This document shows, in pieces, positions 11,655 through 62,834 of a stretch of 64,000 nucleotides of DNA; the stretch's first letter is position 1; each line of letters opens with the position of its first letter. Source of the DNA: Myxococcales bacterium 68-20. Its GTDB lineage: Bacteria > Myxococcota_A > Polyangia > Polyangiales > Polyangiaceae. The position numbers were made by a program, and so were the translations under genes. Where the stretch lies: the NCBI GenBank assembly GCA_001899635.1, contig MKVQ01000004.1:376023-440022 (forward strand). The letters run 5' to 3'. The notes beneath the pieces were generated by a model, which was not told the origin of the DNA, ran no database searches, and saw only the letters and a list, made by a program, of their open reading frames with translations.

Positions 11655-11683
11655 ATCACCCGAAACTCATCCACTCGAGAAAT

Positions 11684-12292: not shown

Positions 12293-12327
12293 CCGCGATC
12301 GCCCAAGAGCGGCCGATACGACCCTGT

Positions 12328-14337: not shown

Positions 14338-14615
14338 CCGCCTCCGCTTCCTGGTTTCTTGGTCCCCGAACCGTAACGTACGTTCCGCCGTCCCCGAGCT
14401 TCCTTCGTGCCGACGTTCGACGGTCGACCCAGCCCAATCATTCCACCGAGGCCGTGCGAACCGTTCCGACGCCCCCGCGCGGGCCTCGATCGCTGGCCCT
14501 TCAGCAGCCCCACTTCGTCGAGAACACACGACAAACCGGGAGCTCACCCGCGCCGGACCATCGCGTTCGGCCTCCTGCGCGCAGTGCGGCGTTGCTCCCT
14601 ACCGCCGGGGCCGCC

Positions 14616-44819: not shown

Positions 44820-45778
44820 TTGACGGAGCTCGGAAGCAGCGGTTTTCGGTACACCAAATCTTCTTTCAAATGTAACAGCTCGAACGCCGTCGTGACATTC
44901 AACAGTGATTCGGCGTGGCCAAGCAAGAGTACGCCGCCGGGGACGAGGCGGTCGTAGAACATCTCGATGACCCGGCGTCGCGCGGCAGCATCGAAGTAGA
45001 GCACCACGTTCCGACAGAAGATGACGTCGCATCGACCGACGAGCTGGGTGCGCTCCTCGTCGAGCAGGTTCATCTGCGTGAAGTGGCAGAGCGTGCGGGC
45101 GGCCGGCACGACACCATGGAGCCCCGCGTGCCCCGCCTGTCCCGAGACGGTGCGCGCCGAACCACCGGAACCGAACGCGGGCTCACTCGCCTCGTGCGGG
45201 ACGAACCACTTGGCGCGGGCCTCGTCGCTCGTCGCTCGGAACGAAGCTGGACCGTAGATGCCACGGCGCGCCGCTGCGATGCACTTCTTCGAGAGATCGG
45301 AGCCGTACACCCGCAACTCCCATCCCGCGGTCGGATCGAAGAGTCCCGACTCGAGGATCAGCATCGCGATCGTGTACGCCTCTTCTCCGGTCGAACACCC
45401 GGCACTCCAGACCTGGATCCGCCGCCGCGGCTTCGCAGCGAGCATCGGCAGGAGCTCCTGCTGGAACGCCCGGAGCTGGTAGTCCTCGCGGAAGAAGTAC
45501 GTCTCGTGCGTCGTCAGGAGATCGCCGGCCTCGTCCCACTCCTCCCCGGCGAGCGGGCTGTACTTGAGAAGCTGGTAGTAGTCGGCGAACGACGTGAGCC
45601 CGCGCACGTTCAAGCGCTCGCGGAGCCGTCGCTCGAGCGAGGAGCGCGACTCGGGGCCGAACCAGATGCCCAGACGTTCGCTGACGAGATCGCGCAGCAG
45701 ACGGTACTCGTCCGCACGGAGCTGAGGCTCCCCTGGTCCGCGACGTCCTCCGAAGAGCGGCTTCTTCACGGCATTCAC
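44816..45778 (-). CDS. cheR: chemotaxis methyltransferase CheR
   Basis: Transfers methyl from SAM to receptor glutamates. About 320 residues: N-terminal helical CheR_N (YRLLRDLVSERLGIWFGPES, ERRLRERLNVRG), then the SAM domain: TTHETYFFRED, IQVWSAGCSTGEEAYTIAML and DVIFCRNVVLYFDAAARRRV, with GGVLLLGHAESL near the end. GTG at 45778 overlaps the HEAT-protein stop (GTGA), so translation is coupled; a GTG 9 bp later is an alternative. It overlaps cheB by 4 bp. Confidence 0.95.
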   Translation of the reverse strand: MNAVKKPLFGGRRGPGEPQLRADEYRLLRDLVSERLGIWFGPESRSSLERRLRERLNVRGLTSFADYYQLLKYSPLAGEEWDEAGDLLTTHETYFFREDYQLRAFQQELLPMLAAKPRRRIQVWSAGCSTGEEAYTIAMLILESGLFDPTAGWELRVYGSDLSKKCIAAARRGIYGPASFRATSDEARAKWFVPHEASEPAFGSGGSARTVSGQAGHAGLHGVVPAARTLCHFTQMNLLDEERTQLVGRCDVIFCRNVVLYFDAAARRRVIEMFYDRLVPGGVLLLGHAESLLNVTTAFELLHLKEDLVYRKPLLPSSVK

Positions 45779-47838: not shown

Positions 47839-48374
47839 GCGATCTCCACGGAGGCGGCGTTGACACCGTCCGCGAGCGCCGCCTGCGTCACGGCCCCGAA
47901 CGCCCTGGCATCGAGCACGAAGACCAGCCGCGATCCCAGCGTGGTCACGCCTTCGATCCCGCGGGTCTCGTCGCCCGCTCCGAGCGGCGGTGCGGGACGG
48001 AGCTCGCCGCCGGCGAGACCGAAGACCTCGGACACGGAGTCGACGACGAGCGCGGCATGGTGCGCCCTGGTGTCGGGCGCCCGTCTCCCGGCTTCCTCTT
48101 TGCTCCCTGCCAGCCCGACGTCGAGCACGATCCACTTCGTCTTCCGCGATCGCGGGACCTCCGGGAGCCCGAACCGCTCGCGCAGATCGATGACGGGGAC
48201 GACGTCGCCGCGGTAATCGGCGACGCCCTTCACCGTCGCGGGAGCGCTGGGAAGGCCGACGACCACGAGCGGATTCACGATCTCGCGGACGACCTCGATC
48301 CGCACGGCGTACATCACCTCGCCGACGAGGAAGCCTACGAGGTCTTTCGAGGGGTCGTGTCGGTGGCGAGCCAT
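47835..48374 (-). CDS. cheW: CheW-like coupling protein, second copy
   Basis: Adaptor coupling receptors to CheA. About 179 residues, SH3-like folds: KDLVGFLVGEVMYAVRIEVV, REIVNPLVVVGLPSAPATVK, GVADYRGDVVPVIDLRERFG, ALVVDSVSEVFGLAGGELRP and RLVFVLDARAFGAV. It has a short insertion (AGSKEEAGRRAPDTRAH) not usual in CheW. Two nt separate it from the first cheW; its stop overlaps the HEAT-protein start. Confidence 0.93.
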   Translation of the reverse strand: MARHRHDPSKDLVGFLVGEVMYAVRIEVVREIVNPLVVVGLPSAPATVKGVADYRGDVVPVIDLRERFGLPEVPRSRKTKWIVLDVGLAGSKEEAGRRAPDTRAHHAALVVDSVSEVFGLAGGELRPAPPLGAGDETRGIEGVTTLGSRLVFVLDARAFGAVTQAALADGVNAASVEIA

Positions 48375-48376
48375 CG

Positions 48377-48862
48377 TTACTCCGCAAACAACGGCGCGAG
48401 ATCGAGGAGCATGAGGACCGCGCCGCCCTGGGGCCGACCGATGCCGACGACGTGAGGCGGCTGCTCCGTGCCGAGGACCGTGGGCGGCTCGATCTCCGCT
48501 TCCGAGAGGCGAAAGACCTGGAGCACCTCGTCCACGAGCAAGCCGATCTCTTCGTCGACCGCGTCGACGAGGAGGATGCGGCTCTTGCGATCCATCGTGA
48601 ACGTGCGCGCGAGCTTGAACCGTCGCTTCAGATCGAGGACGGCGACGAGGCGTCCGCGGACGCTCATCACCCCGACCACGTCGGGATCGGCCCGCGGCAC
48701 CTCGGTGATCGGCAGCGGCTTGAGGATCTCGACGATGCTGCCGATCTCGATCGCGTACGCCTCGCTGCCCAGCGTGAACGCGAGGTACTCCGCGCGCTTG
48801 CCGAGCTCGTCGGCGCGTTGCATCGCCGAGCGGCCTTCGATCCTGCGAGCAAGCGTCTTCAC
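48377..48862 (-). CDS. cheW: CheW-like coupling protein, first copy
   Basis: About 161 residues with the standard CheW order: EYLAFTLGSEAYAIEIGSIV, EILKPLPITEVPRADPDVVG, VMSVRGRLVAVLDLKRRFKL, and LLVDEVLQVFRLSEAEIEPP. GTG start overlaps the cheA stop by 4 bp (GTGA). Two different CheW genes in one operon suggest two coupling partners or array positions; sequence alone does not show which binds CheA. Confidence 0.94.
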   Translation of the reverse strand: MKTLARRIEGRSAMQRADELGKRAEYLAFTLGSEAYAIEIGSIVEILKPLPITEVPRADPDVVGVMSVRGRLVAVLDLKRRFKLARTFTMDRKSRILLVDAVDEEIGLLVDEVLQVFRLSEAEIEPPTVLGTEQPPHVVGIGRPQGGAVLMLLDLAPLFAE

Positions 48863-51381
48863 GCGAAGCCTCCGCCTCCTCCGAACACATCGCCGCGCTC
48901 CGCTCCGCCGCGCATGCCGCTCTCCGGCGCGTCGATGCTCCGGCGCACCACCGCAACCTCACCGCTCATCCCGGCCGGCTGCAGGCGCGAGGCCTCTCCC
49001 ACCGGAACCGTCGCCAGGACCTCGGCGATGAGCGCGGCCGCGTCGATCACGAGGCCGACGCGCTGGTCGCCGAGCTCGGTCGCGCCGGCGAACCCACGCA
49101 CCTTCTTCAGCGACCGGCCGAGCGCCTTGATGACGATGTCTTGCTGGCCGACGAGCCGATCGACGACGAAGCCGACGCGACGATCCGCGACCGTGGCGAT
49201 GACGACGTAGCTCTTCGGTCGAGCGTTCGGCCCTGCGAAGGGACGCACCTCGGGCGGCTTCGGAGTCTTCGCATCCTCGTTGAACCAGACGCCGGCGCGG
49301 TGGCCTTCGAGCTGGAAGACCTTGGAGAGACGAGCGATCGGGAGCGTTGCTCCACGCTGCGTCATCACCTCGCGACCATCGAACGTCCTCACCATCGACT
49401 CGTCGAAGACGATCGCCTCCTCGACGCTCGCGAGCGGCATGCAGAAGGTGCGCCCCGCCACCTCGACGATCAGCACGCTGATGATCGCGAGCGTGATCGG
49501 CAACGTGATCGTCATCTTCGTGCCGATGCCGACCTCACTCGTGATGTCGACGACGCCACCTAGCTTGGCGATGTTCGTCTGCACGATATCCATGCCGACG
49601 CCGCGGCCGGAGAGGCTCGTCGCCGAAGGCCGCGTCGTGAAGCCGTGCCGGAAGACGAGCGCGAGCACGTCCTTCGTGCTCATCTCGCGCGCCTCGGCCT
49701 CCGTCACGAGGCCGCGCTTGAGCGCAGCCGTGAGGATGACCGCCGGGTCCATGCCCTTCCCGTCGTCCTCGACCTCGATGACGACGTGGTTGCCCTTCTG
49801 GAAGGCATTGAGCGCGATCGTCCCGACAGCGGGCTTCTGCACGTGCATGCGCTCGTCACGGTCCTCGATGCCGTGATCGATCGCGTTGCGGATCATGTGC
49901 ATGAGCGGATCGCTCAGCTCCTCGACGATGAGCTTGTCGATCTCCGTCTCTGCACCGGTGACGACGAGGTTCACCTGCTTGTCGTGCTCGCGCGAGATCT
50001 GCCGCACGATGCGCGCGAGCTTGTCGAACACCTGGCCGAGCGGGACCATGCGCACCTCGAGGATGCCGTTCTGCATCTGCGCGAGGTGGCGTTCGAAGGA
50101 GCGATGCAGGCGCGTGAGGCTCGTCGCCAGCTCGCGCAGCTCGCCGTCGTGCGGCTGCCCGGCAGCCCCACCCTTGCCACGCATGAGCGTCTCGTGGAGG
50201 CGCACGCGCTCGGTGAGACGCGAGACCGCCGAGCGGACGATCGCGAGCTCGCCGACGATGTTCATCAGGTGATCGAGCTTCCGGATGTCGACGCGGACGG
50301 TCTGCGTGACGCTCCGAAGCGTGAGCTCGCGCTGCTGCTGCTCGCGCTGCGCCTGCGCTCCTCCGGAGCCGACAGGCGGAGCGGAGGGCGCCGGCGGAAC
50401 GGACTGGTGCACACCGGGGACCCCGGTCTGGTTCGGCGGCGGAGGCCGCGAGGTTCGCGTTCCCTCCGTGTAGTCGTCCGCCTCGCTCAGCATCCCGAGC
50501 GCGTCGTCGGTGCCGGGCTCCAGGTCGAACGACGGGAGCGGCGCCGGCGGCATCTCCGACGCCGACGGACGCGGCGGCCGCATGCTGTCGTGCGCAGACG
50601 GAGCGGCGTCGCGCCGGCGAACCTCTTCGATCGACACGTTCGGAGCGGCGACCGCCGCACCGAGGACGGAGAGCCCCTCGCGGCTCGCGACGAGAATCTC
50701 GAGCTCCACGCTCTCGGCGTCCCCGCCTTCGCCGGTCGGGAGGAACGTGATGATCTCGCCGTGGGGGCGCGTCTTCGCCTTGAGCTCGTCGAGCGCCGAG
50801 TCGATCGTCGCGAGCTGGAACTGCACCCGCATCCGATAGAGCGAGAGCCCGGCCTGGAGGTTCGTGCGGAGACGATGCTCCTCGTACTCCGTGAGGACTC
50901 CGAGGAGGCCCGGATCGAGCTCGTATTGCGCGACGACGCTGCCGCCGCCACCGCCCTTCTGCTGCGCGACCTGCCCGAGTGCAGCGAGGAGCGCCTTCAC
51001 CTCGGCCGCCGGCTCGGGACCGTCCCCCTTCGCCGCGCTGAGGATGCGCCCGTAGAGCTCGACGGACTGGAAGAGGAGATCGAGCACCTGCGGGGTGAGC
51101 TCGATCCGCCCGAGCCGCAGGTCGTCGAGGAGATTCTCGAGCTCGTGCGAGAGCCCGGACATCATCGCGGCACCGAACAGGCCCGAGAGGCCCTTCAGCG
51201 TGTGGACCGCGCGGAAGACGTCGTTGACGAGCTCGGCGTCACTCCCGCCGCGCCGGCAGACCTCGTCGAGGGCGAGGAGGTCGCGGCTGAGGCCGTCGAC
51301 GATCTCCTGCGCCTCGGAGAAGAACTCCTCCCTCGCCTTGTCACCGGCGCTGTCGCCGCGACCGCCCGAGTGCTCGCCCAT
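48859..51381 (-). CDS. cheA: chemotaxis histidine kinase CheA
   Basis: About 840 residues. P1 Hpt domain with the phosphorylated His60 in AVHTLKGLSGLFG; a variable central region with a Pro-rich stretch (about 280-340); P3 dimerisation helices (VDIRKLDHLMNIVGELAIVR); P4 kinase with MHMIRNAIDHGIE (N-box), VEVEDDGKGMDP (G1) and SLSGRGVGMDIVQTNIAKLGG (G2). P5 regulatory SH3-like part has GRTFCMPLASVEEAIVF and GFVVDRLVGQQDIVIK. Domain order and motifs are complete. It lies after cheY (7 bp) and overlaps cheW. Confidence 0.96.
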   Translation of the reverse strand: MGEHSGGRGDSAGDKAREEFFSEAQEIVDGLSRDLLALDEVCRRGGSDAELVNDVFRAVHTLKGLSGLFGAAMMSGLSHELENLLDDLRLGRIELTPQVLDLLFQSVELYGRILSAAKGDGPEPAAEVKALLAALGQVAQQKGGGGGSVVAQYELDPGLLGVLTEYEEHRLRTNLQAGLSLYRMRVQFQLATIDSALDELKAKTRPHGEIITFLPTGEGGDAESVELEILVASREGLSVLGAAVAAPNVSIEEVRRRDAAPSAHDSMRPPRPSASEMPPAPLPSFDLEPGTDDALGMLSEADDYTEGTRTSRPPPPNQTGVPGVHQSVPPAPSAPPVGSGGAQAQREQQQRELTLRSVTQTVRVDIRKLDHLMNIVGELAIVRSAVSRLTERVRLHETLMRGKGGAAGQPHDGELRELATSLTRLHRSFERHLAQMQNGILEVRMVPLGQVFDKLARIVRQISREHDKQVNLVVTGAETEIDKLIVEELSDPLMHMIRNAIDHGIEDRDERMHVQKPAVGTIALNAFQKGNHVVIEVEDDGKGMDPAVILTAALKRGLVTEAEAREMSTKDVLALVFRHGFTTRPSATSLSGRGVGMDIVQTNIAKLGGVVDITSEVGIGTKMTITLPITLAIISVLIVEVAGRTFCMPLASVEEAIVFDESMVRTFDGREVMTQRGATLPIARLSKVFQLEGHRAGVWFNEDAKTPKPPEVRPFAGPNARPKSYVVIATVADRRVGFVVDRLVGQQDIVIKALGRSLKKVRGFAGATELGDQRVGLVIDAAALIAEVLATVPVGEASRLQPAGMSGEVAVVRRSIDAPESGMRGGAERGDVFGGGGGFA

Positions 51382-51388
51382 CGCTGCG

Positions 51389-51865
51389 CTACCTTCTCGA
51401 GCCGCCGGGCGGGACGGACGGTGCGTCCTCGGAGGCTTCGAGCTGGGCCTTCGTGCGCTCCGAGCCCTGAGCGGCGTCCGTCAGCAACAACCCCTCGCAC
51501 ACGCCACGGAGCGACTCCGGGGTGAACGGCTTGGGCACGTACGCGTCCGCGCCGAGCTTGCGCCCGCGCTCCACGTCGCGCGGCGTCGCCTGCGTCGAGA
51601 TGATCACCAGCGGCGTCGAACGGTATTGCGCCGAACGACGGATGAAATGGATCAGCTCGAGGCCGTTCACGTCCGGCATGTTGATGTCGGTGATGATCAG
51701 ATCGTAACGGGCGCGCGGCAGGAGGCGCATCGCATCGAAGCCGCTCTGCGCTTCGGTCACCTCGATCGCGCCGACCGACGGCGCGAAGGCCGGGTCTTCG
51801 AGGATCGCCCGGACCAGCGAGCGCGTCGACGCGGAGTCTTCGACGACGAGGATGCGGCGCGGCAC
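51389..51865 (-). CDS. cheY: CheY-like response regulator
   Basis: About 158 residues: a single receiver domain with VVEDSASTR acidic pair, phospho-acceptor Asp60 in LIITDINMPDVNG, Ser/Thr in VIISTQATP, and Lys in AYVPKPFTPES. An extra Ser/Glu/Pro tail of about 30 residues follows. It starts with GTG at 51865 and is the first gene of the chemosensory operon; the 71 bp to the divergent CinA-like gene holds the promoter. Confidence 0.93.
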   Translation of the reverse strand: MPRRILVVEDSASTRSLVRAILEDPAFAPSVGAIEVTEAQSGFDAMRLLPRARYDLIITDINMPDVNGLELIHFIRRSAQYRSTPLVIISTQATPRDVERGRKLGADAYVPKPFTPESLRGVCEGLLLTDAAQGSERTKAQLEASEDAPSVPPGGSRR

Positions 51866-51936
51866 GATGGCGAGTGTACAGTAACTGAGGCTTGGGCCGA
51901 TAGCGACGGTGAGTGCCCGCGTGTAGACTCATCATC

Positions 51937-52686
51937 GTGTTCGACTCCTTGCCTCCGCCCAAGACCGCCGCCGCGCTCGTGATTGGCAACGAGCTGCTCA
52001 GCGGCAAGGTCGAGGAGGCCAACGTGCATGTGCTCGCACGCGCACTCCGAACGCTCGGGATCGAGCTCCGGCGCGTCGTGATGGTGCTCGACGACATCGA
52101 CGTGATCGCACGCGAGGTGAAGCAGCTCTCGGAGTCTCACGACTGGCTCTTCACCTCCGGCGGTGTCGGCCCCACCCACGACGACGTGACGGTCCACGCA
52201 GTCGCGCGCGCGTTCGGGGCGAACGTGATCGAGGATCCGACGCTCGCGTCGATGCTCCGGGAGCACTACCAGGAGCGATGCACGGACGGGCACCTCCAGA
52301 TGGCGCTGGTGCCCGAGGGCGCGAGCCTCGAGGCGCACGACAGCATCCGCTGGCCCACGATCCGCATCGGCAACACGTGGCTCCTTCCCGGCGTACCCGA
52401 GATCTTCCGCATGAAGCTCGCCGTCGTCATCGATCGGCTGGCCGGCGGAGTCGGCTTCGTGTCACGAGCGGTGTTCACGAAGATGGATGAGGGCGATCTC
52501 AAGGCGCTGCTCGATCGGGTCGTCGAGCGTTTTCCGGACGTCGGGGTCGGCTCCTACCCGAAGTGGCAAGATCCGACGTACAAGACGAAGCTGACGTTCG
52601 ATGGCCGCGATCCAAGGCGTGTCGACGCGGCTCGCGATGCGTTCATCGCGCTCTTGCCCGAAGGCGAGCCGCAACGCGTGGAGTGA
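51937..52686 (+). CDS. CinA-like molybdopterin-binding domain protein
   Basis: About 249 residues of the MoCF/CinA N-terminal fold: ALVIGNELLSGKVEEANVHV and WLFTSGGVGPTHDDVTVHAV are the signature parts, with WLLPGVPEIFRMKL near the middle. The C-terminal NMN deamidase domain of full CinA is absent, so it resembles the short eukaryote-like/FAD-related form. It may act on a nucleotide substrate; the exact reaction is not clear. A GTG at 51937 is chosen; a GTG 24 bp upstream is possible but overlaps a TAGACT-type promoter element. Divergent from the che operon. Confidence 0.85.
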   Translation: MFDSLPPPKTAAALVIGNELLSGKVEEANVHVLARALRTLGIELRRVVMVLDDIDVIAREVKQLSESHDWLFTSGGVGPTHDDVTVHAVARAFGANVIEDPTLASMLREHYQERCTDGHLQMALVPEGASLEAHDSIRWPTIRIGNTWLLPGVPEIFRMKLAVVIDRLAGGVGFVSRAVFTKMDEGDLKALLDRVVERFPDVGVGSYPKWQDPTYKTKLTFDGRDPRRVDAARDAFIALLPEGEPQRVE

Positions 52687-52812
52687 GGGGCTCAGGCGGA
52701 CGCACCGCCGCTGGGAGCCTGCGCCGACCGGTCCGAGGCGGCGGAGGCTCACCATTGGGTCTACTGCGCATCGCGTCAAAGCCCGTTGACGCAGTCGTTC
52801 GAGCGACGCGGC

Positions 52813-53502
52813 TCAGTGTCCGAGAAACGGTCGAAAGAAGTCGTCGGCCTCGGTGAGGAGCCGCGGGATCGAGGCGCCGAGCTCGTGGCCGTCATCGACC
52901 TCGATCAGACGGACATGCGGCTTGCCACGCGACCACTCGCGCGAGAGCTCGACGTCGACGACATCGTCGCGCGTGCCGTGGACGATCCGTACGGGCACAC
53001 GCACGTCCGGCCAGGGCCCGAGCTCGGTGTCGAGACGGGCCAGCTCGTCGACGAAGCCCCAGTGGACCCGAGCTCGCTGCTTCGTCGCGTAGTCGTCGAC
53101 CTCGATGAAGCCCGTCTCCTTCCACGAGCGCCAGGCCTCGCTGCCGATGCGCGCTTCCCAGCGCGTGGCGATCTGGAACGCAGGCGCCATCAGGAAGACG
53201 GCCGCGACCCGCGGATCCGCCGCCGCGACGCGGCAGGCCGTCAGTCCGCCGAGGCTCGACCCGATGAGGGCGACGCGCGCACGCGGCCCGCCCACCGCGT
53301 CGATCGCCGCGATCACCCGCTCCTGCATGGCCGAGAGCAAGAGCTGCTCGAACGACGGAACCCGGAGATCGAGCACCTCGAGCGGCGCCCCGTGTCCCGC
53401 CGCCCAGGTCGCGAACGCTCTCGCCTTCGTCGATGCCGGGCTCGACGCGAACCCGTGCAAGTAGAGGAAAACGGGCGCGGGCGGTGCGTTCTTCGGATCC
53501 AT
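52813..53502 (-). CDS. alpha/beta hydrolase (YqiA-like esterase)
   Basis: About 229 residues, cytoplasmic. Oxyanion segment FLYLHGFASSPASTKA, nucleophile Ser83 in VALIGSSLGGLTAC, Asp in VHGTRDDVVDV and His in VDDGHELG. The HGFASSP form is typical of short YqiA/UPF0227-like esterases. Its ATG overlaps the stop of the PDZ lipoprotein upstream by one base (TGATG), so the two are translationally coupled. The substrate is unknown. Confidence 0.88.
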   Translation of the reverse strand: MDPKNAPPAPVFLYLHGFASSPASTKARAFATWAAGHGAPLEVLDLRVPSFEQLLLSAMQERVIAAIDAVGGPRARVALIGSSLGGLTACRVAAADPRVAAVFLMAPAFQIATRWEARIGSEAWRSWKETGFIEVDDYATKQRARVHWGFVDELARLDTELGPWPDVRVPVRIVHGTRDDVVDVELSREWSRGKPHVRLIEVDDGHELGASIPRLLTEADDFFRPFLGH

Positions 53503-53873
53503 CACCTGAACTTTCCCTCCGCGAGGAGCGGCGTGCGCACGACCTCGACCTCGCGCTTCTCGGTGCCACGCAGGACCGTGAGCACCATCTTGCTCCCGAC
53601 GTCGCCGCGCACCGCGCGGCGGACGTCCTCCTGGCTCATCGCCCGGACATCTTTGCCGTCGATGAGCAGGATCTCGTCGTCGACGGCGAGCCCCGCCCGC
53701 TCCGCGCCCTGACCGGGGGGCATCGACCGAACGAAGAGCCGGTGGTCGCTCGACTGGCCGAGAGCCGCTCCGATCGTCCCGGGTGCCGAGCTCCCGCACC
53801 CGCAAAACCCGGCACAAAACACCGAGAAAGCCGCGACCAGCAGCCCTCGTTCACAGACCCTGAAAAAATTCAT
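53502..53873 (-). CDS. PDZ-domain lipoprotein
   Basis: About 123 residues. Signal with lipobox-like FCAGFCGC (residues about 19-26), then a PDZ domain: RLFVRSMPPGQGAERAGLAV, DDEILLIDGKDVRAMSQEDV and GSKMVLTVLRGTEKREVEVV. It binds C-terminal peptides or acts as a small periplasmic adaptor. It overlaps the hydrolase by one base. The ATG at 53873 is the only good start. Divergent from the FHA gene with 111 bp between starts. Confidence 0.85.
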   Translation of the reverse strand: MNFFRVCERGLLVAAFSVFCAGFCGCGSSAPGTIGAALGQSSDHRLFVRSMPPGQGAERAGLAVDDEILLIDGKDVRAMSQEDVRRAVRGDVGSKMVLTVLRGTEKREVEVVRTPLLAEGKFR

Positions 53874-53984
53874 TCGCTTGCAGCGTGAGTGGGCGTTGCT
53901 TTCGGTCGCGGCAGCTCGCTAATCTTTCTTCGTCCCACAAGGATGGTCCTGCGTTACGCTTCGGGGCCGGTCGCGCGTGCTCCC

Positions 53985-55568
53985 ATGTGGAAGCTGGTCA
54001 TCGAGGACGACGAAGGAAAGCGGACAGTTGTCCCCCTGTCGCGCGATGACTACACCATCGGGCGTCAGGAGGGGAACACCATCCGCCTGACCGAGCGCAA
54101 CGTCTCGCGCAATCACGGGCGCGTGCGTCGCAACCGGTCGGCCAACGGCTCTGGCTCGGTCTTCGTGCTCGAAGACCTCCGCAGCTACAACGGCCTCTTC
54201 GTGAACGGCCTGCGGGTCGCCCATACGCAGGACCTTCAGCACGGCGACCTGATCCAGATCGGCGACTACCGGATCGTCCTCCAGGACGATGCAGTGGGGT
54301 CCGCCGACGCCACCATCCCCATCGCGGCTCTCGATCTGAGCGACGCGAAGGCGACGATCCCGATCGCTGCCGCGTACCGCGGCCAGACGCTCACCGAGCG
54401 CCCGAACCGCCTCGTCATGCTCGTCGGGCCGACGCCCGGCGTGGAGTACCCGCTCGATCGCGAGCGCATGACGATCGGACGCGCCGAGGACGCGTCGATC
54501 TCCGTCAACCACAACTCGGTCTCGCGCCTGCACTGCGAGGTGCACGCGCTCGGGGACGGCCGCTTCGAGATCGTCGACAAGGGGTCGTCGAACGGCGTCC
54601 GCGTCAACGCCGTCGAGCTCCGTCGCAGCATCATCGAGGCCGGCGACGTGATCGAGCTCGGTGACGTCCGCTTCAAGTTCGTCGGCGCGGGTCAGATCTT
54701 CGTACCGGGCCCGAACGAGAGCCAGCAGCTCACGGCGATCAGCGATCGCGAAGCCGAGCTGGTGATTCCGAAGAAGGGCCTCGGCGGCTACTTCGTTCCG
54801 GTCGTCGGCGCGGGAGTCGTCGGCGCGATGATCATCCTCGCCTTCGTCTACGTGCTCCGGGCTCGCGCAGGCACGGACGAAGGCGACGGCAGGATCGAGC
54901 CCGACACGGAGCAGGCGATCCTCGCCGAAGCGAAGAGCAAGTGCACCATCGACGACTGCGAGCAAGCGCACACGATGGTGTCGACCTTCGCCGAGACCTC
55001 GCCCTGGCGTGACCACGCGGACTTCCGCTACGTCACCGCCACGTGGGCCGAGTCGCTCCTCCGGAGGGCACGCGTCGATACCGACAGCGCGAGCCGACGG
55101 GCGACGCTGAGCCGAATCCTCGCCGACCCGCGCGTCGACGCGATGGCGAGGAAGCAGGCGAACGACCTGCTCACGACGCCGGAGCCTGCGCCGACGCCGA
55201 CCGACCTCCCGACCGTCGCGACGACGAAGGACTCCGGCGGCGCCGTCACTGCGGCCGTTCCCCCGACGCCGACGCCGACGCCGACGCCGGCCCCGACGCG
55301 CACCACGCCGACTTCGCACGCGACCGTCACGAGCTCACCGCCACCGGCGCCGGCGCCGGCACCTACGCCAAAGCAGTCGGGCACGAACGCGCTCGAGAAG
55401 GCCCGCGAGGCCGCGCTGCGAGGAGAGCCCGCGGTCGTGCGCCAGCTCCTCGAGCAGAAGGTCCGTAACGGCCACGGGACCGCCGAAGAGGCCAACCTCG
55501 TTCGCCAGGCATGCAAGGCGATGAGCGATCGCGTCTGCAGCGAAGACGTGAAGTCGAAGTACCCCTAG
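53985..55568 (+). CDS. double FHA-domain membrane protein
   Basis: About 527 residues. Two FHA phosphothreonine-binding domains, one near 12-95 (YTIGRQEGNTIRL, VSRNHGRV, SYNGLFVNG) and one near 145-225 (MTIGRAEDASISV, SVSRLHCEV, SSNGVRVNA). A membrane helix (YFVPVVGAGVVGAMIILAF) separates them from an exported helical part and a Thr/Pro-rich linker (PTPTPTPTP). A closing helical repeat ends the protein. It should read Ser/Thr kinase output from inside and pass it outwards. Starts at 53943 or 53889 would add 14 or 32 residues; MWKLVIEDDEGK at 53985 is the usual FHA start. Confidence 0.9.
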   Translation: MWKLVIEDDEGKRTVVPLSRDDYTIGRQEGNTIRLTERNVSRNHGRVRRNRSANGSGSVFVLEDLRSYNGLFVNGLRVAHTQDLQHGDLIQIGDYRIVLQDDAVGSADATIPIAALDLSDAKATIPIAAAYRGQTLTERPNRLVMLVGPTPGVEYPLDRERMTIGRAEDASISVNHNSVSRLHCEVHALGDGRFEIVDKGSSNGVRVNAVELRRSIIEAGDVIELGDVRFKFVGAGQIFVPGPNESQQLTAISDREAELVIPKKGLGGYFVPVVGAGVVGAMIILAFVYVLRARAGTDEGDGRIEPDTEQAILAEAKSKCTIDDCEQAHTMVSTFAETSPWRDHADFRYVTATWAESLLRRARVDTDSASRRATLSRILADPRVDAMARKQANDLLTTPEPAPTPTDLPTVATTKDSGGAVTAAVPPTPTPTPTPAPTRTTPTSHATVTSSPPPAPAPAPTPKQSGTNALEKAREAALRGEPAVVRQLLEQKVRNGHGTAEEANLVRQACKAMSDRVCSEDVKSKYP

Positions 55569-55630
55569 CCTACCGGCTCGGCGCAGCACGACGTCCGCGC
55601 ATCGCACCGCTCTCCAGCGCTCGGAGCCAA

Positions 55631-56149
55631 TCAGAACGTGGCGCCGGCGAACACGTCCGCGACGAGCGCGACGAGCAGATCGGCCTCTGCGCGGTCGAAC
55701 GCGGCGAGGTGCGGCGAGTCGAGATCGAGCACGGCACGGAGCTCACCGCCGACCACGACGGGCACCACCAGCTCCGAGCGCGTTCGATCGTCGCACGCGA
55801 TGTGGCCGGGGAAGCGCGACACGTCGGGCACGAGCTGGACCTCGTGCGTTCGCGCGCATGCACCGCAGACACCGCGATCGAAGTCGATTCGCAAGCAGCC
55901 CATCGTGCCCTGGTACGGCCCGACGGCCAGCGTTCGATCGCCGACGCGCCGGTAGAAGCCACACCAGTTCGTCTGAACGAGCGTCTCCCAGAGAAGGCAC
56001 GCGAGTGTGGCTTCGATCGCCACGGCGTCCCGCTCACCGTCGAGCGCAGCGCGGATCTGCGGGAGCGCCTGCTCGAGGCGCGCGACGCGCTCGGCCGTCG
56101 GCAGCAGCGTCCCCCGAGCAACTGCCGGCAAGAGGATCCCTTCGGACAT
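55631..56149 (-). CDS. free methionine-(R)-sulfoxide reductase (GAF type)
   Basis: Reduces free methionine-R-sulfoxide, an antioxidant enzyme. About 172 residues with a GAF fold: LVQTNWCGFYRRVGDRTLAV, GPYQGTMGCLRIDFDRGVCG, FPGHIACDDRTRSELVVPVV. The three Cys of the redox centre are at 85, 95 and 119, matching the spacing in characterised members (84, 94, 118 in E. coli). ATG at 56149. It is convergent with the FHA gene and 62 bp from it. Confidence 0.93.
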   Translation of the reverse strand: MSEGILLPAVARGTLLPTAERVARLEQALPQIRAALDGERDAVAIEATLACLLWETLVQTNWCGFYRRVGDRTLAVGPYQGTMGCLRIDFDRGVCGACARTHEVQLVPDVSRFPGHIACDDRTRSELVVPVVVGGELRAVLDLDSPHLAAFDRAEADLLVALVADVFAGATF

Positions 56150-56325
56150 GGCCAGCCACCATAGTGGATGCCGCCTTCGCGTCGAGCGTCGCGCCGGTTG
56201 TCGGAACCAAGACAGTGACGGCGCCTGGACAGCGACTCAGCCGTGGTTTTCCCCGAGATCGCGGCGATTTCTCGGGCGACACGACCTGGCCCGCAAGCTG
56301 CATTGGAGGCTGCTCGGTGAACCGC

Positions 56326-56514
56326 ATGAGCCCCTTTGGCCCCTTCGACATGCTCGATACCGTTCCTCGCGAGGCTTCGCCGACCGGCGATCGCAACGTG
56401 CGGGCTTCGGCCCCGCGTGTCCGGCGTGAACCGCAGCCTCCGCGGCAGCACTGGTGGTCCACGTTCGACGGCTGGCGAATCGCCGACCTCGACGCGGAGT
56501 TCTCTCTCGCCTGA
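56326..56514 (+). CDS. small hypothetical protein
   Basis: 62 residues, MSPFGPFDMLDTVPREASPT..., ending in STFDGWRIADLDAEFSLA. It has coding-like composition and a good stop, but the ribosome site is weak and no family is recognised. It converges on the GT22 gene (27 bp between ends). Reported with reserve; the rest of 56150-56541 holds the upstream region of the methionine-sulfoxide reductase. Confidence 0.35.
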   Translation: MSPFGPFDMLDTVPREASPTGDRNVRASAPRVRREPQPPRQHWWSTFDGWRIADLDAEFSLA

Positions 56515-56541
56515 CCGCCAGCCGCTCTGGTCCCGCAGCGC

Positions 56542-58119
56542 TCAGGGCCCGATGCGATAGAGCGAACGGAAACGCAGCTTTCGCAACGGCGGACGCGCGC
56601 TCGCATTGTAGGCGTCGACGAGACGCATCACCTTCGCGGTGAGCACGGGATCGCGATAGACGGGCAGCTCGGAGTACACGAGCGTCGCGTGATCGTCGAG
56701 GGGCGTGCCGGTCTGCAGGATCGGACGATCGGCGATGAGCCACGAGCGCGCCGTCCCCGCGTCGATCCGACGCGAGACCTCCTCCGGGTCGGCCTTGTCG
56801 ACGTCATAGACGCGCGGATGGAACGGCGGAAGGTAGAGCGGGATCTCCGGCAGCGCCGTCGCGTGGAGCTCGTCGCCGAACGTCTCGTGAACGAAGTGCG
56901 CGAAGCGCACGTCGTGATGCCATCCGAGCGGGACGAACGCGAGCAGCGTCATCCCCGCGAAGCTCGCTCCCGCGAGCAGCTTACCCGGCCAGCCGCGTCG
57001 CTTGGCCCATCCCCACACCGCCAGGCGCGCCGTCACGCGATGGCCGAATCGCCCCGGACCGAACGACGGCCCCAGCGCCATCACGACGAACATCGTCGAG
57101 AGCACCGCGATCGGGAACAGGAAGCGCTCCTCCTTGTGCGCGATCAGGTTGTGGACGACGAAGAACGGGAGCGTCGCCCACGTCACCGGATGACGCGGAC
57201 AGCGAAGCCACGCCGCCACCGCGAGCACGAGCAGCGCGAGCACCACCGGCAAGAAGACGTTGGCCGGAAGCATCCAGAAGTAGGCGAAGGGAGGATCGGT
57301 CCCGAAGGTGCTCGCCGCGCCCTCGAGCAAGTTCGCCCGGAAGTACGACCACGCCGGGAACGTCCATGCGCCGTATCCCCAGCGATCGACGAGCGCCCCG
57401 ATCGCGAGGGCGCTCACTCCTCCGAGCACGATCGCGCCGAGCCCGCGAAGCGATGCTCTCCCGACGATCCATGCCCAGGCGACGAGGCCGATCGCGATGA
57501 ACGCCGTCTGGAAGCGCATCTCGAAGGCGATGCCGAAGAGGAGCCCCACGATGAACGCGCGTCCCGTCCGCGCGAACGCGGGCACGGACCATACGCGCCC
57601 GTCTTCGGACGGCGTCGCGCCCTCGAGCAGGAGGGCGAAGCCAACCGTGAGCACCGCCATCGCTCCGCTCTCGGACGACGTACGCACGAAGAGGTAGGGC
57701 AAGAAGCCGAGCATCGTGACGACGCGCGTGTGCGTGCGCGCCTCCTCCTCGGTCTTCATCCACGGCAGTGTCGTCCGGAGGAAGAGCGCGAGCGCGCCGA
57801 CGTTGGCGAGGCCGGTGAGGAGCCGGAAGACGAACGCGACCTGGAAGATGTCGTGCACACCGGCGAGCCCGAGCCCCCGCGCGACGAGCCAGTAGACGAA
57901 GGGCTGCAGCCACGGCCGAATCTGCCGTGCGTGCTCCCAGGGCAAGAGCTTCGGATCCACCTCACCGAGCTTCGATCGCACGAGCTCGATGACCTGAAAG
58001 TACTCGTCGGGGTGGAAGTACGCGTAGCTGAACCACGCCGTCACGCAGGTCACTGCGAGCGTCACCGCGAGGTGCGCTCGGACAAACCGGTCGATCCGCG
58101 ACGAGCCCGAGAAGGTCAC
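56542..58119 (-). CDS. GT22-type mannosyltransferase-like membrane protein
   Basis: About 525 residues with a dozen membrane helices. The first luminal/periplasmic loop has HPDEYFQVIE near residue 36, the signature of the GT22 family (PIG-B, Alg9, Alg12), which adds mannose from dolichol- or polyprenyl-phosphate-mannose to lipid-linked sugars. Further family traits are the FVRTSSESGAMAVLTV segment and HNLIAHKEERFLFPIAVLS, where HKEERF matches the conserved HKE(E/D)RF of this family. A soluble C-terminal end (YNASARPPLRKL) closes it. GTG at 58119 overlaps the stop of the RND exporter by 4 bp, so both are made together. Confidence 0.88.
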   Translation of the reverse strand: MTFSGSSRIDRFVRAHLAVTLAVTCVTAWFSYAYFHPDEYFQVIELVRSKLGEVDPKLLPWEHARQIRPWLQPFVYWLVARGLGLAGVHDIFQVAFVFRLLTGLANVGALALFLRTTLPWMKTEEEARTHTRVVTMLGFLPYLFVRTSSESGAMAVLTVGFALLLEGATPSEDGRVWSVPAFARTGRAFIVGLLFGIAFEMRFQTAFIAIGLVAWAWIVGRASLRGLGAIVLGGVSALAIGALVDRWGYGAWTFPAWSYFRANLLEGAASTFGTDPPFAYFWMLPANVFLPVVLALLVLAVAAWLRCPRHPVTWATLPFFVVHNLIAHKEERFLFPIAVLSTMFVVMALGPSFGPGRFGHRVTARLAVWGWAKRRGWPGKLLAGASFAGMTLLAFVPLGWHHDVRFAHFVHETFGDELHATALPEIPLYLPPFHPRVYDVDKADPEEVSRRIDAGTARSWLIADRPILQTGTPLDDHATLVYSELPVYRDPVLTAKVMRLVDAYNASARPPLRKLRFRSLYRIGP

Positions 58120-60722
58120 GTGCTCCCTGCTTGGTTCTTCTTCGCCCGGAGGAGCAGGTGGAGCAGCGCCGGCAAGAAGAGGAGCGCCATGATCACACAC
58201 GCGATCTCGCCCCACATCGCGAGCCGGCCGAACGACTGCAGCGCCTGATTGTCCGAGAAGAGCATCGAGCCGTAACCGACGACGGTAGTCCAGCTGCACA
58301 GCGCGACGGCCGCCCCCGTCCTCGACACCGCGGCGGTGACGTCACCTTCGAGGAGCCTCGTGCGGTCAAAGACATTGAATGGGTATTCGCAGCCGATGCC
58401 GAACGTGATCGGCAGCGCGATGAAGTTGAAGAAATTGAGCCTCGTTTCAGTATAGGCCGCAAGCCCAACGAGACAGGTGACACCCATCACGAGCGCAAGT
58501 AGCACGGAGAACGTCCCGATGCGCGAGCGCGTCGCGAACGTGACGACGATCACGACGGCGAGGAAGGATGCCCCCGTCGCGAGCGGTCCGTCCCGCTTCA
58601 TCGACCGGATGAGCTCCGCGAAGATCGTCGAGCGACTCGCGGTCTGGACGAGCGTGCCATCGGGCAGCCTGACGTTGTCCGTCGTCTTCGCCATCCGGAG
58701 GAGCGTGCGACCGTCGGAGAACGAGACTCCGAATTTGTACTTGATGTACATCAGCGTCCCGAGCGTGCCGTCGTTCTCCGTGAAGCGTCGCTTGATGAGC
58801 GGCGGGAGATCCTTCGCCTCGACGATGCCGAGATCCTCGGGCGGCTTCATCTCCTCGAGGCGCCTCCGCTCCTCCTCCGGCATGTCGTGGAGAACGCGCG
58901 GGGTGAGGCGATCGCGAATTCGCTCGAGGACCTCGAGCTTCTGCTTCTGCTCCTCGGGGGTGCCGGGAAGGAAGTGCCGGATCGTGACGATCTCCTCGAT
59001 CAAGGGGCCCTTCGGATCGGCCCGATCGGCCTCGAGGATCCGCTTCTCGAGGGCCGGCACCTGCTCCGGCGTGTCCGCCAGGATCAGCGTGCCGGAGATG
59101 CTCTGCTTGCCGCGGAAGACTTCGTTGTCGGCCTTGCTGGTCCACTCGCCCGGCCCGCCGACCTGCTTCGACGAGCGCGAGCCGAGCTTGGCGAAGTTGT
59201 ACTCCCACGGGTCCTGAAGAAACGCGGGCAGGTAGGTCGCCGTCCAGGCAGTGAAGAGCAGCGGGACGATCACGAATGCGAGCGGCCATCGCTCGGTAAC
59301 CTTGGCGATCGCGCGCATCACGGGCCCGCTCGAGCCGTCCTCCGAGATCGACGGCATCGGATCGCGGAGCCACGTCGGGAGGCGCTCCTGGACCCACTCG
59401 ACGCTCACGATGAGCGCGGGGACGAGCGGGATGATCGACATCCAGACGAGGAACATGCCGACGAAGCCGATCGTCCCGAACTGGCTGAAGCCGCGGAAGT
59501 GAGTGATCGTGAGCGATCCGTACGCGATGCTCGCGACCGACGCGCCGACGAGCTCCGCCCGGAATGCGTTGAGCACGGCCTCTCGGCGCGCCACTTCCTT
59601 CTCCATCCCGCGCGCGCAAAACTCGCGATAGCGAGACAGGAGGACGATCGGGTAGTTGATTCCGTTGCCGAGGATGATCGCGCCGAGGAAGGCGCCCGGC
59701 GTGTTGACGAAGCCGAACACGGCCGTCGCGAACGCGTACGCCCCACCGACGCCCATCAGCGCGGGGGTCGAGATGACGATCAGCGACCACGGCGACCGGT
59801 AGAAGGCGATGATGCCGCCGAGGATGAGGAGGAACGCGATCCCGCTCGCCCAGGCGGCCTGGGTCAAGGTCGACTCCTTCTCCGCAACCGCGTTCGCGAT
59901 GTCGCCACCGAAGCCGACCTTCATCTCCGGGTGATAGGCCGACGTGACATCGAGAGCGGCGATCCGCTTCTTCATGTCGGCGAGGAACAGATCGCCCGAG
60001 CGGCCGCCGGTGCCCGATGCGTTCGACACGATCCGGACGACCATGATCGTCCCCGCATCGTTCGCGAAGTAGCCGGTCGGGAAGTCGTTGTACTTCGCCG
60101 ACGCGTTCTTCCAGCGCTCGTAATACGCGTCCATCCCGAGTGTACCGGGGCGAGCCGCGTCCGCGGCGTCGGTCGGCGTCGGCGACGGAGGAGACGGCGC
60201 ATCTTCGAGGCGCTCGACGGCGCCGCTGCGATACGCGATCTCGTGGTCGAGTGTCTCGTCGGCCGCTTCGAGCTCGGAGAGGCTCACATAGAGCCATTTG
60301 TGCTTTTCGAAGAACTCCGCGAGGTCCTTCGTCCCACTCTCGACATACGCGATGAAGTCGGGCCCACAGGCGTTCTTGCATGCGGCGTCGGTCTCGGCAC
60401 ACGCGCGAAGACACGCCTCGAGCTTCTCGGACTCCGCCTCGAGGTTGGCGGAGAGATCGTCGACGAACCGCTCGTTCGCCTTCCGATCCGGGGACTCGAC
60501 GACCACGAGGAACGTCGCGGTTCCGCCGACCCGTCCGAGCTGATGTTCGAACGCCTTGAAGCCCGGGCTGTCGCGCGGGAGCAGCTCGAGGAAGTCGGAG
60601 CGAAGCTGGAGATTCCTGGCGTAGGACCACGATCCGATCATGAAGAGCAGACCGAGGAACAGGACGATGATGGGTCGCCGGCCGGCGGCGTCGACCAGGC
60701 CTCCAACGATGCGTCGGAACAT
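58116..60722 (-). CDS. MMPL/RND-family lipid exporter
   Basis: About 868 residues: TM1 (IIVLFLGLLFMIGSWSY), a large periplasmic loop with four close Cys (CLRAC, CKNAC), TM2-TM6, a second large loop, and TM7-TM12. This is the hydrophobe/HpnN-MmpL branch of RND. The TM4 motif is ILGNGINYPIVLLSRYREF, where the relay Asp of MmpL proteins (GxxxDY) is Asn. The TM10 motif is FGIGCEYPFNVFDRTR, where the Asp is Glu. This may change energy coupling. ATG at 60722 has GGGGGGAGA directly upstream; the open frame beyond it is low-complexity. It overlaps the GT22 gene and likely exports its product. Confidence 0.92.
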   Translation of the reverse strand: MFRRIVGGLVDAAGRRPIIVLFLGLLFMIGSWSYARNLQLRSDFLELLPRDSPGFKAFEHQLGRVGGTATFLVVVESPDRKANERFVDDLSANLEAESEKLEACLRACAETDAACKNACGPDFIAYVESGTKDLAEFFEKHKWLYVSLSELEAADETLDHEIAYRSGAVERLEDAPSPPSPTPTDAADAARPGTLGMDAYYERWKNASAKYNDFPTGYFANDAGTIMVVRIVSNASGTGGRSGDLFLADMKKRIAALDVTSAYHPEMKVGFGGDIANAVAEKESTLTQAAWASGIAFLLILGGIIAFYRSPWSLIVISTPALMGVGGAYAFATAVFGFVNTPGAFLGAIILGNGINYPIVLLSRYREFCARGMEKEVARREAVLNAFRAELVGASVASIAYGSLTITHFRGFSQFGTIGFVGMFLVWMSIIPLVPALIVSVEWVQERLPTWLRDPMPSISEDGSSGPVMRAIAKVTERWPLAFVIVPLLFTAWTATYLPAFLQDPWEYNFAKLGSRSSKQVGGPGEWTSKADNEVFRGKQSISGTLILADTPEQVPALEKRILEADRADPKGPLIEEIVTIRHFLPGTPEEQKQKLEVLERIRDRLTPRVLHDMPEEERRRLEEMKPPEDLGIVEAKDLPPLIKRRFTENDGTLGTLMYIKYKFGVSFSDGRTLLRMAKTTDNVRLPDGTLVQTASRSTIFAELIRSMKRDGPLATGASFLAVVIVVTFATRSRIGTFSVLLALVMGVTCLVGLAAYTETRLNFFNFIALPITFGIGCEYPFNVFDRTRLLEGDVTAAVSRTGAAVALCSWTTVVGYGSMLFSDNQALQSFGRLAMWGEIACVIMALLFLPALLHLLLRAKKNQAGST

Positions 60723-60918
60723 TCTCCCCCCGGAAAGTAAGCCGGCGTTTCCACTTACCATGGCCGGAACGCCGCGATTTCGAGCCTCCGCCGAGCTCGA
60801 TGCGGCCGCGAACGCCGGCGGCTCGGGCCGCATCGGGCGGGCGATCTCGCGCGCGATCGGGCAAATCGCGCGCTCGGGCAGTTGACCGCGCGGACGGCTC
60901 GGCCTCTCATGGTCGCAC

Positions 60919-61383
60919 GTGCACGATCCTCTCGCTCAGCTCGAGCGCTCGCACCGACGCCTCGAAGAGGCATGCGATGCGCTCACCATGGCCGCCCGTG
61001 ATCGCGACATCGAGACGGCAGGCGACGTCTGCGCCTTCTTCGCGCGGCAGGTCCGCCGTCACGAGGAAGACGAGGAGAAGTCGCTGTTCCCGCGCCTCGA
61101 GGGCCTCGAGGCGAACGCCGCACTCCACGCCGTCCTCGAGCGGCTCTCACGCGAACATCGCGAGCACGAGGCGTTGCAGGCAAGGCTGGAGGACGCGGTC
61201 GCAGGTCGATTCGACGGCGACCTGTGGAGCGAGCTCGCGACGATCGCCGATCTTCTGACGCGGGCGTATCGCGCGCACATCGAGGAGGAAGAGACGCACC
61301 TCTTCCCCGCCGCTCGCGAGCTTCTCACGAGCGACGCGCTCGAGGCGATGAGCGCGGAGATGGCGGCGCGACGCGGCCGCTGA
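60919..61383 (+). CDS. hemerythrin-like (HHE) protein
   Basis: About 154 residues, a four-helix di-iron protein of the HHE cation-binding group. Metal ligands are spaced as expected: H12 in LERSHRRLEEAC, RRHEEDEEKSLFPRL, REHREHEAL and HIEEEETHLFPAAREL. Roles include oxygen or NO sensing and iron or oxidative stress. GTG at 60919 begins MHDPLAQLERSHRRLE. Divergent from the RND exporter with 196 bp between starts. Confidence 0.92.
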   Translation: MHDPLAQLERSHRRLEEACDALTMAARDRDIETAGDVCAFFARQVRRHEEDEEKSLFPRLEGLEANAALHAVLERLSREHREHEALQARLEDAVAGRFDGDLWSELATIADLLTRAYRAHIEEEETHLFPAARELLTSDALEAMSAEMAARRGR

Positions 61384-61652: not shown

Positions 61653-62834
61653 ATGCATCGCCAGGGTTGGCAGGGTAAAGCCGCCGTCGTTCTCGGGCTG
61701 CTCCTGGTCACTGCCGTGATGGCGGGTGGCTGCGGAGCGGAATCGAGGGTCGTCGGCCTCGAGAGCGGGAGCGGGCCCACGCCATCTCTGCCGGTAGAGG
61801 CGGCAGATGCCTCTTCGCAAGAGGCCTCTACCGGTGGTGCGTGCGCATCGAACGCGTGCCCCGACGGACGCGTGAGCTGCCCGAACGCCCCGTTCCCTTG
61901 CGGCGTCGATTTGAGCTCCGACAACGACAACTGTGGAGCGTGCGGTGTTCGTTGTCCGACGGACAACAACTTTCTCGCACGTTTCTCGGGCGTAATGCGC
62001 TGCGTAGCCGGCTCCTGCCTCCTCGCTTGCGACGAGGAACATGCAGACTGCAACGGAATTCCTGATGACGGTTGCGAGACACTCGTCGCGGGGCCCTCGG
62101 CCAACGACATCAACAACTGCGGCGCCTGCGGCAACGTCTGCACCGACATCTGTTCCCAGGGAGTGTGCGGCTGTCCGCCAGGAATGACGTTCTGCCCGGG
62201 GGATGGGCAGTGCCACAACCTCAACCAAGAAGACGACAACTGCGGCGCGTGCGGCAACGTCTGTCCTCTCGACACCGAGCCTCCCTTCCCTCCCGAGTGG
62301 AACGTCTTCCGCGGGTGCGTCGCCGGCCAGTGCAACAAGCCGAGGTGTCAGCCGTTCGTCCGTGATTGCAACGGTACCTTCGTCGACCCGGGGGCCGACG
62401 GGTGTGAGACGTCGACGTTCTTCGACGTCAACAACTGCGGCGAGTGCGGGAAGGCTTGCGCCCCCGGCGAGAACTGCGTCTTCGGTGAGTGCCGCTGTCC
62501 GTGCGGGGCGGTCTGCACCAAGGGCCTCGACTCGGACCCCAACAACTGCGGGACGTGCGGGGTGAGGTGTCCGGGCGACTGGAGGTCGGTGGAGTTCTCC
62601 GCTCCGGTCTCGCTCGATCCCGCCCACGGCAAGCCCATCTGCGATCAGGGCGTCTGCGGGTACACGTGCTCCCCGCACTGGGCTGATTGCGACGGCGACA
62701 TTCGCAACGGATGCGAGACCGACCTCCGAAACGATCCGCTCAACTGCGGAGGATGTGGCGTTCAGTGTGACGGCATCGAGGGCCAGCCCTGCATCGACGG
62801 ACGCTGTCTCACGAAGGAGTGCGAGGTCCAATGA
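61653..62834 (+). CDS. Cys-rich repeat lipoprotein
   Basis: About 393 residues. A lipoprotein signal ends in VMAGGC (near residue 27). The rest is a series of Cys-rich modules of the pattern NNCGACG-x-V/R-C and DCxGxxxxGCE: DNDNCGACGVRC, INNCGACGNVC, DDNCGACGNVC, VNNCGECGKAC, PNNCGTCGVRC, LNCGGCGVQC. Such modules are common in secreted myxobacterial proteins and should be disulfide-bonded. Function unknown. The ATG follows the spacer TACCTCCCG. Its stop overlaps the next gene's ATG (ATGA), so both are translated together. Confidence 0.88.
   Translation: MHRQGWQGKAAVVLGLLLVTAVMAGGCGAESRVVGLESGSGPTPSLPVEAADASSQEASTGGACASNACPDGRVSCPNAPFPCGVDLSSDNDNCGACGVRCPTDNNFLARFSGVMRCVAGSCLLACDEEHADCNGIPDDGCETLVAGPSANDINNCGACGNVCTDICSQGVCGCPPGMTFCPGDGQCHNLNQEDDNCGACGNVCPLDTEPPFPPEWNVFRGCVAGQCNKPRCQPFVRDCNGTFVDPGADGCETSTFFDVNNCGECGKACAPGENCVFGECRCPCGAVCTKGLDSDPNNCGTCGVRCPGDWRSVEFSAPVSLDPAHGKPICDQGVCGYTCSPHWADCDGDIRNGCETDLRNDPLNCGGCGVQCDGIEGQPCIDGRCLTKECEVQ

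Follow-up and report, generated by a model that had tools for sequence, protein, structure and literature searches.

A coupled RND exporter and GT22 glycosyltransferase in a Myxococcales bacterium: a candidate unit for finishing and exporting a membrane glycolipid

Two overlapping genes in Myxococcales bacterium 68-20 encode an exporter of the RND superfamily and a glycosyltransferase of family GT22. They lie on the minus strand of the window analysed here, a stretch of 64,000 nucleotides of contig MKVQ01000004.1 whose numbering is used throughout. In our judgement it is an even call that the pair is a two-gene operon that finishes and exports a membrane glycolipid, in which the GT22 enzyme would add a sugar at the periplasmic face, the RND protein would lift the product, and the lipid anchor would most likely be ceramide. 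The reading is supported by the coupling of the two genes across genera, by the sequence and fold of the transferase, by the RND fold of the exporter, and by the sphingolipid-, inositol-lipid- and glycolipid-type genes that repeatedly accompany relatives of either gene. The substrate, the sugar and the direction of export are what we infer from this evidence.

The gene pair and its conservation

The exporter gene (58116..60722, minus strand; 868 aa) encodes an MMPL/HAE3-type RND lipid exporter that is HpnN-like but falls under the HpnN cut-offs. It opens with ATG at 60722 and its TGA ends at 58116. The transferase gene (56542..58119, minus strand; 525 aa), encoding a PIG-B/Alg9-like GT22 enzyme of the GT-C type, opens with GTG at 58119 and its stop ends at 56542. 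The bases GTGA (58116..58119, minus strand) belong to both genes, and this 4-bp stop-start overlap, which the initial annotation had pointed out, suggests translational coupling. The longest open reading frames (ORFs) in the two frames have a coding-type third-position GC content of 0.88 and 0.84, and the 11.9 Mb genome gave no GT22 match at E 1e-3 besides the window gene. A scan for sigma-70-like promoters returned 0 sites, and terminator-like sites numbered 3, compared with 2.4 in shuffled sequences.

GT22 had been described in the initial annotation as best known from eukaryotes, but the family is not confined to them. Of 282 Myxococcota genomes sampled, 31 had a PF03901 match over the cut-off, against none of 14 controls, and GT22 homologues were also found in records titled Alphaproteobacteria and Bacteroidota. 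Within the window's family, 17 of 108 genomes carry a homologue of the transferase at E 1e-20, amounting to 19 intact genes plus two contig-end fragments in genome G018; the two rows from G005 represent one gene. An exporter followed by GT22 in tandem was found for nine of the 19 intact genes, in four of the nine genera with GT22: G000, G001, G005 and G011 (one genus); G188 and G418; G111; and G457 (C406) and G458. Conserved pairs in other Myxococcota, proposed at the outset as the check to make, are thus present. The distance from the exporter stop to the nearest candidate GT22 start is -4 to +5 nt in all nine (five overlap by 4 bp, two abut and two are separated by 4-5 nt). The window's neighbouring genes recur in genus-mates; they do not recur in G188 (g12) or G111 (g49), so that the pair outlives its surroundings. 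Its presence in four genera with such tight spacing exceeds chance. That the two proteins are made together, as first proposed, fits the tight coupling in these nine pairs, but the arrangement is not obligatory, as GT22 stands alone in G002, G003, G006 and the alphaproteobacterial loci described below.

It is hardly credible that the pairing is an accidental adjacency preserved by descent. Several species, near relatives included, do carry only one of the two genes or have them at separate places, but the -4 to +5 nt spacing holds in four genera with different flanks in g1, g12 and g49, and a separate GT22-MMPL pairing occurs in another family. There, three species (L060, L061, L062) of a single genus in family f24 have a GT22 gene (36-37% identity) and an MMPL gene, a very distant one (23-26%), in convergent orientation.

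The window neighbours that were scanned (hemerythrin, GAF, FHA, CheA-type, alpha/beta hydrolase and MoCF genes) show no evident link to the pair, and the unit was therefore taken as two genes. A wider operon with the hemerythrin, GAF or FHA genes was rejected; these recur in same-genus loci and not in the other genera compared. The block of CheA-type, GAF, FHA, MoCF and hemerythrin genes at 45775-61383 is syntenic across several same-genus genomes. At 61653-62834, adjoining the hemerythrin gene, lies an ORF rich in cysteine, whose product begins like a lipoprotein and repeats motifs of the NCGACG type. Separately, the two GT22 copies of G003 (L046 and L047, on C98 and C44) are 77-78% identical to the window's and may reflect a duplication or a mixed bin.

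The transferase

The transferase scored 100.2 bits against Glyco_transf_22 (Pfam PF03901; cut-off 23.8). In structure comparison its predicted model (mean predicted local distance difference test score, pLDDT, 88.6) was nearest to ALG12 (Z 28.9, 434 residues, root-mean-square deviation 4.8); ALG9 came next (Z 23.4 and 22.8), nearly tied with Pmt4 (22.2). GT22 structures took ranks 1-3 in Foldseek. The single sequence gave no phmmer match in the PDB and a profile was needed: a profile of 31 sequences matched only ALG9 (3.4e-13) and ALG12 (2.5e-7) at E up to 1. The transferase belongs to GT22 on the strength of its Pfam score and predicted fold, and the PIG-B/Alg9-like assignment of the initial annotation holds.

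Both motifs on which that assignment had drawn were located. HPDEYFQ, in the first loop (residues 36-42; 57994..58014, minus strand), probably holds the catalytic acid, and HKEERF (residues 328-333; 57121..57138, minus strand) aligns with HKEeRF of ALG9. In the alignment of 31 GT22 sequences, the window's included, D38, E39 and Q42 are nearly invariant, while H328, K329, E330, R332 and F333 (HKE.RF) are invariant. The P of HPDE varies among near relatives (N, I, V, T), and its H is F in most alphaproteobacterial rows. An acidic first loop of the H-x-D-E type and HKEERF are presumably characteristic GT22 motifs.

The enzyme therefore resembles PIG-B, ALG9 and ALG12 in its PF03901 score, its acidic first loop and HKEERF, and in a predicted GT-C fold over most of its length. 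It differs from ALG12 and ALG9 in being bacterial, 13% identical to them in structural alignment, and co-encoded with an exporter. Whereas the eukaryotic enzymes belong to a glycosylphosphatidylinositol (GPI) or N-glycan setting, the alphaproteobacterial homologues of the window's transferase sit in sphingolipid-type clusters. The transferred sugar is perhaps mannose, by analogy with the GT22 family only; GT22 membership was not adopted as proof of mannose transfer.

The exporter

Membership of the exporter in the RND superfamily is indicated by an MMPL domain (PF03176) score of 84.6 bits against a cut-off of 20.5. Its closest solved relative is HpnN (5khn, 6wu0), both by sequence and by Foldseek (3e-25), and the two are of similar length. 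The exporter model is moderate (pLDDT 71) and its VIA-align list placed HpnN in a tie with NPC1-like, Dispatched and MmpL proteins, so the fold alone cannot tell the substrate.

The likeness to HpnN is limited in several respects. The exporter reached 171.6 of 751.85 bits (TIGR03480) and 85.7 of 1100 (NF052374) with curated HpnN models, well under their cut-offs. The acidic residue in transmembrane helix 4 (TM4) of HpnN (GLGVDF in 5khn) is missing, with Asn in place of Asp in the corresponding GNGINY (residues 352-357; 59652..59669, minus strand), and an acidic residue is present in TM10, namely the Glu of GIGCEY (residues 775-780; 58383..58400, minus strand), which is Asp in other rows. At these likely ion-relay positions the residues are unusual. 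Among 66 aligned exporter rows, GNGxN occurs in TM4 of 53 (9 of 12 GT22-linked, 12 of 12 GT4-linked, 18 of 28 inositol-linked and 14 of 14 other rows), and the TM10 position is acidic in all 66; the 13 rows without GNGxN are those of families f24 and f26 plus four from the window's own family. Furthermore, the neighbours identified for this exporter clade are glycolipid-, inositol-lipid- and sphingolipid-type genes, unlike those of the hopanoid transporter HpnN.

A hopanoid or sterol transporter, with the GT22 enzyme glycosylating hopanoids or sterols, would account for HpnN and BstA being among the best curated profiles and for HpnN being the best solved relative. Two sub-cut-off matches point the same way. 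One is to HpnA (132 of 368 bits), from a reductase-like gene near the GNAT gene of the window's genome (see below); the other, of the sterol-sensing kind (19.9 of 22.3), comes from the very distant MMPL protein in L060. We consider this explanation very unlikely and set it aside, as the HpnN scores and that with the BstA model (100.5 of 1400 bits) are far under the cut-offs, TM4 has Asn where HpnN has Asp, and a scan that covered only some of the neighbours turned up no gene for hopanoids or sterols.

Mycobacterial MmpL proteins are a further point of comparison, being RND proteins that export glycolipids, such as MmpL12 for lipo-oligosaccharides (PMC12507525, in the text available). The window exporter reaches only 70.7 of 874.7 bits with the mycobacterial MmpL model TIGR00833, and a strict mycobacterial MmpL relative was set aside on this score. 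A tree of the exporters (quick search, single support values, midpoint root; row L113 left out as a copy of the window gene) requires five changes of the GT22 label, and it offers no evidence for a single origin of the GT22 pairing.

Genes that accompany relatives of the pair

Evidence on the lipid comes largely from the genomic surroundings of homologues. A genome scan for GT22 neighbourhoods covered 38 loci. Twelve alphaproteobacterial loci, from records titled Alphaproteobacteria that include two Rhizobium sp. metagenome-assembled genomes, hold GT22 homologues with 38-42% identity to the window's in one conserved cluster. It comprises a GNAT acyltransferase, an SDR gene, the unassigned gene d17, a PMT_2-like GT-C gene (sub-cut-off), GT4b (in 2 of the 12 loci) or GT4d, GT22, GT4a, GT4c and a gene like serine palmitoyltransferase (SPT). 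The GNAT gene is present in 11 of the 12 clusters and the SPT-like gene in nine, every absence coinciding with a contig end. We take the bacterial ceramide synthase to be GNAT-like. Four of the clusters also have a desaturase, and the one that was scanned carries a sphingolipid-desaturase domain. Mannose is among the sugars of the bacterial glycosphingolipids drawn in a figure of PMC6445935, according to its legend. Of the query genes, the remaining loci (L159-L171; Bacteroidota and others) showed nothing beyond GT22 except a weaker match to GNAT in L164 and another to SPT in L169, both isolated. The start of the Fluviicola contig at L165 gave us the impression of a translated sequencing adapter rather than a protein.

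The window's genome itself has a GNAT homologue (40%), with an SPT-like gene some 2.5 kb away and the reductase-like gene mentioned above close by. GT4b is found at C37 together with a MurJ-like gene, and C14 and C16 hold PMT_2-like genes. Across 13 chosen genomes, GNAT was found in ten, the others being G111, G061 and G109, and GT4b likewise in ten.

Places of the exporter were collected with the exporter itself as query, requiring a main match at least 40% identical; the count leaves out a split gene (G040:C48, 39% + 47%) and four short fragments that exceeded 40%. Of the resulting 33 places, four have GT22 within 2.5 kb, 12 have GT4a or GT4b, three have an inositol-lipid-synthase-like gene and 14 have none of these. 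Conversely, GT4b is present in 31 of the 108 family genomes, and 22 of 30 GT4b loci from the window's family have an exporter of this type in their 1.5-kb flank. By genome, GT4b occurs in 13 of 17 with GT22 and 18 of 91 without (Fisher p 1.1e-5 by genome and 0.007 by genus, uncorrected for descent). In 14 of the 30 loci (e.g., L158, L223, L199, L206, L321) a MurJ-like gene is found close to GT4b, and the flippase it would encode is a possible lipid-turning partner.

Such MurJ-like genes also bear on another possibility, that the GT22 enzyme modifies a polyprenyl-linked glycan or a protein, on the model of lipid-linked oligosaccharide assembly by Alg9 and Alg12, while the exporter serves an unrelated lipid and the operon reflects shared control. 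ALG12 and ALG9 are indeed the nearest folds, and the substrates of characterised GT22 enzymes are dolichyl-diphosphate glycans or GPI. We regard this as improbable given the start-stop coupling to a lipid-type RND protein in four genera, despite changing neighbours, and the sphingolipid-type clusters around the alphaproteobacterial homologues. A glycolipid synthesis-and-export unit, as the initial annotation had it, remains the best reading of the pair and its neighbours; its suggestion of a polyprenyl-linked acceptor fared less well, a sphingolipid or inositol lipid being likelier. A polyprenyl lipid is more likely to be the donor for the GT22 enzyme than the acceptor.

Exporter relatives also accompany inositol-lipid genes. 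A PAP2-type inositol-lipid-synthase-like gene was found in 33 of 377 Myxococcota genomes, at 38 places, and an HpnN-like exporter lies within 1.8 kb of it at 29 of these places and in 27 of the 33 genomes; one of the nine places without an exporter nearby is at a contig end. By our own estimate, with up to 31 exporter candidates per genome, chance proximity would account for less than about 5%. Exporters reached through the synthase search are, however, biased by the manner of their finding. Among 28 loci with the synthase-exporter link, 27 have a gene like phosphatidylinositol phosphate (PIP) synthase and 17 have myo-inositol-phosphate synthase (MIPS). One such locus is in the window's genome (L114, G000:C14:298000-317500), where 9786-16571 holds MIPS, the PIP-synthase-like gene, the PAP2 inositol-lipid-synthase-like gene and an HpnN-like exporter paralogue. 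The same three synthesis genes recall the Bacteroides inositol-lipid pathway (PMC9246714), here with exporter paralogues beside them; the words 'RND' and 'transporter' are absent from the main text of that paper.

Weighing the ceramide anchor

Several observations weigh against a ceramide-anchored lipid that is made and exported by the two proteins together. No sphingolipid gene was found beside the window pair at its locus. The profile scores of the key genes are ambiguous: the SPT-like gene of the window's genome scores 367 bits as BioF and 235 as SPT, sub-cut-off, and its alphaproteobacterial counterpart 319 of 640 bits as SPT and 341 of 426 as BioF, so that the SPT identity leans on gene context too. 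The inositol-lipid-synthase-like and PIP-synthase-like genes likewise fall short of their NCBIfam cut-offs, with 145 of 480 and 89 of 170, respectively. Nor is the association of the genes complete. Ten intact GT22 genes have no tandem exporter (in G002, G003 (two), G006, G421 (two), G392, G436 and G446, and one in G457), the G392 gene and one G421 copy having less than 1 kb of upstream contig. At G003:C44, GT22 holds the place it has in the window and the exporter is gone, and no exporter match at E 1e-20 was obtained anywhere in G006 (83% complete). In G002 the exporter orthologue stays in place (L121, G002:C36) and GT22 sits elsewhere, while G004 (72% complete) has the exporter orthologue only. 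At E 1e-10 the window-type exporter (P0001-like) was found in none of the 12 alphaproteobacterial cluster genomes, nor in the two Bacteroidota genomes with GT22 that were searched, which indicates that GT22 does not need the exporter. The exporter, in turn, is without GT22, GT4a, GT4b or inositol-lipid-synthase-like company in the 14 places counted above. Finally, G111, G061 and G109 have the GT22-exporter pair and no GNAT match.

This last observation would fit a glycolipid with a different anchor, namely diacylglycerol, phosphatidylinositol or phosphatidylglycerol, made and exported by the same pair. The neighbours of GT4a type are similar to N-acetylglucosaminyl-phosphatidylglycerol synthase (143-185 bits against a cut-off of 480), and the inositol operon could yield phosphatidylinositol rather than inositol phosphoceramide, because PAP2 proteins can be phosphatases too. 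We treat a non-sphingolipid anchor as a serious alternative, if an unlikely one: GT22 homologues cluster with SPT-like and GNAT genes in those alphaproteobacterial loci that reach far enough, and Myxococcus xanthus reportedly produces ceramide phosphoinositol (PMC9246714, in its available text). Ceramide thus remains the most likely anchor, with diacylglycerol- or phosphatidylinositol-based anchors also considered.

Proposed mechanism

For a ceramide-anchored product, the first sugars would be put on the lipid by cytoplasmic GT4 enzymes encoded elsewhere in the genome. The lipid would then move to the periplasmic face, a step for which the MurJ-like flippase whose gene often adjoins one of the GT4 genes is a possible agent. 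Characterised GT22 relatives take mannose from polyprenyl phosphate, and the window's enzyme might add its residue at the periplasmic face from a donor of this kind. An ion gradient could then drive the HpnN-like RND protein to lift the product out of the inner membrane and in the direction of the outer one, and coupled translation would match the amounts of enzyme and exporter.

A broader proposal is offered more tentatively, as one that could well prove wrong. The HpnN-like clade with GNGxN and an acidic TM10 residue may be a dedicated (glyco)sphingolipid exporter of the Polyangiales, its paralogues specialised by partnership with an inositol-lipid synthase, a GT4 enzyme or GT22, and the GT22 enzyme may complete a periplasmic mannosylated glycosphingolipid.

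Significance

RND export of glycolipids is already known, as mycobacterial MmpL. Three things are new here: GT22 as the exporter's partner, an exporter clade that is HpnN-like yet distinct, and a connection with genes of sphingolipid type. In the available parts of the open-licence literature, we recognised no paper that names a GT22-exporter unit in bacteria or an exporter of the RND type for their sphingolipids. A related proposal is from Caulobacter, where a cluster with LptC2/F2/G2 and a candidate flippase has the same presumed task and also lies with SPT and ceramide synthase (PMC11324152). That proposal is an Lpt-like bridge, whereas the candidate here is an RND protein. In the available text of these reports, the sphingolipid route from the inner to the outer membrane is described as not known, with the Lpt-like genes as untested candidates (PMC11324152), and no flippases or lipid transporters as identified yet for Caulobacter sphingolipids (PMC11087976).

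The exporters described here provide a deletable candidate family for bacterial sphingolipid export, with a predicted substrate class. If the proposed function is correct, a GT22 transferase would enter a bacterial glycosphingolipid pathway, and under the broader, more tentative proposal the mannosylated glycosphingolipid would be a bacterial counterpart of the mannosylated inositol lipids of eukaryotes.

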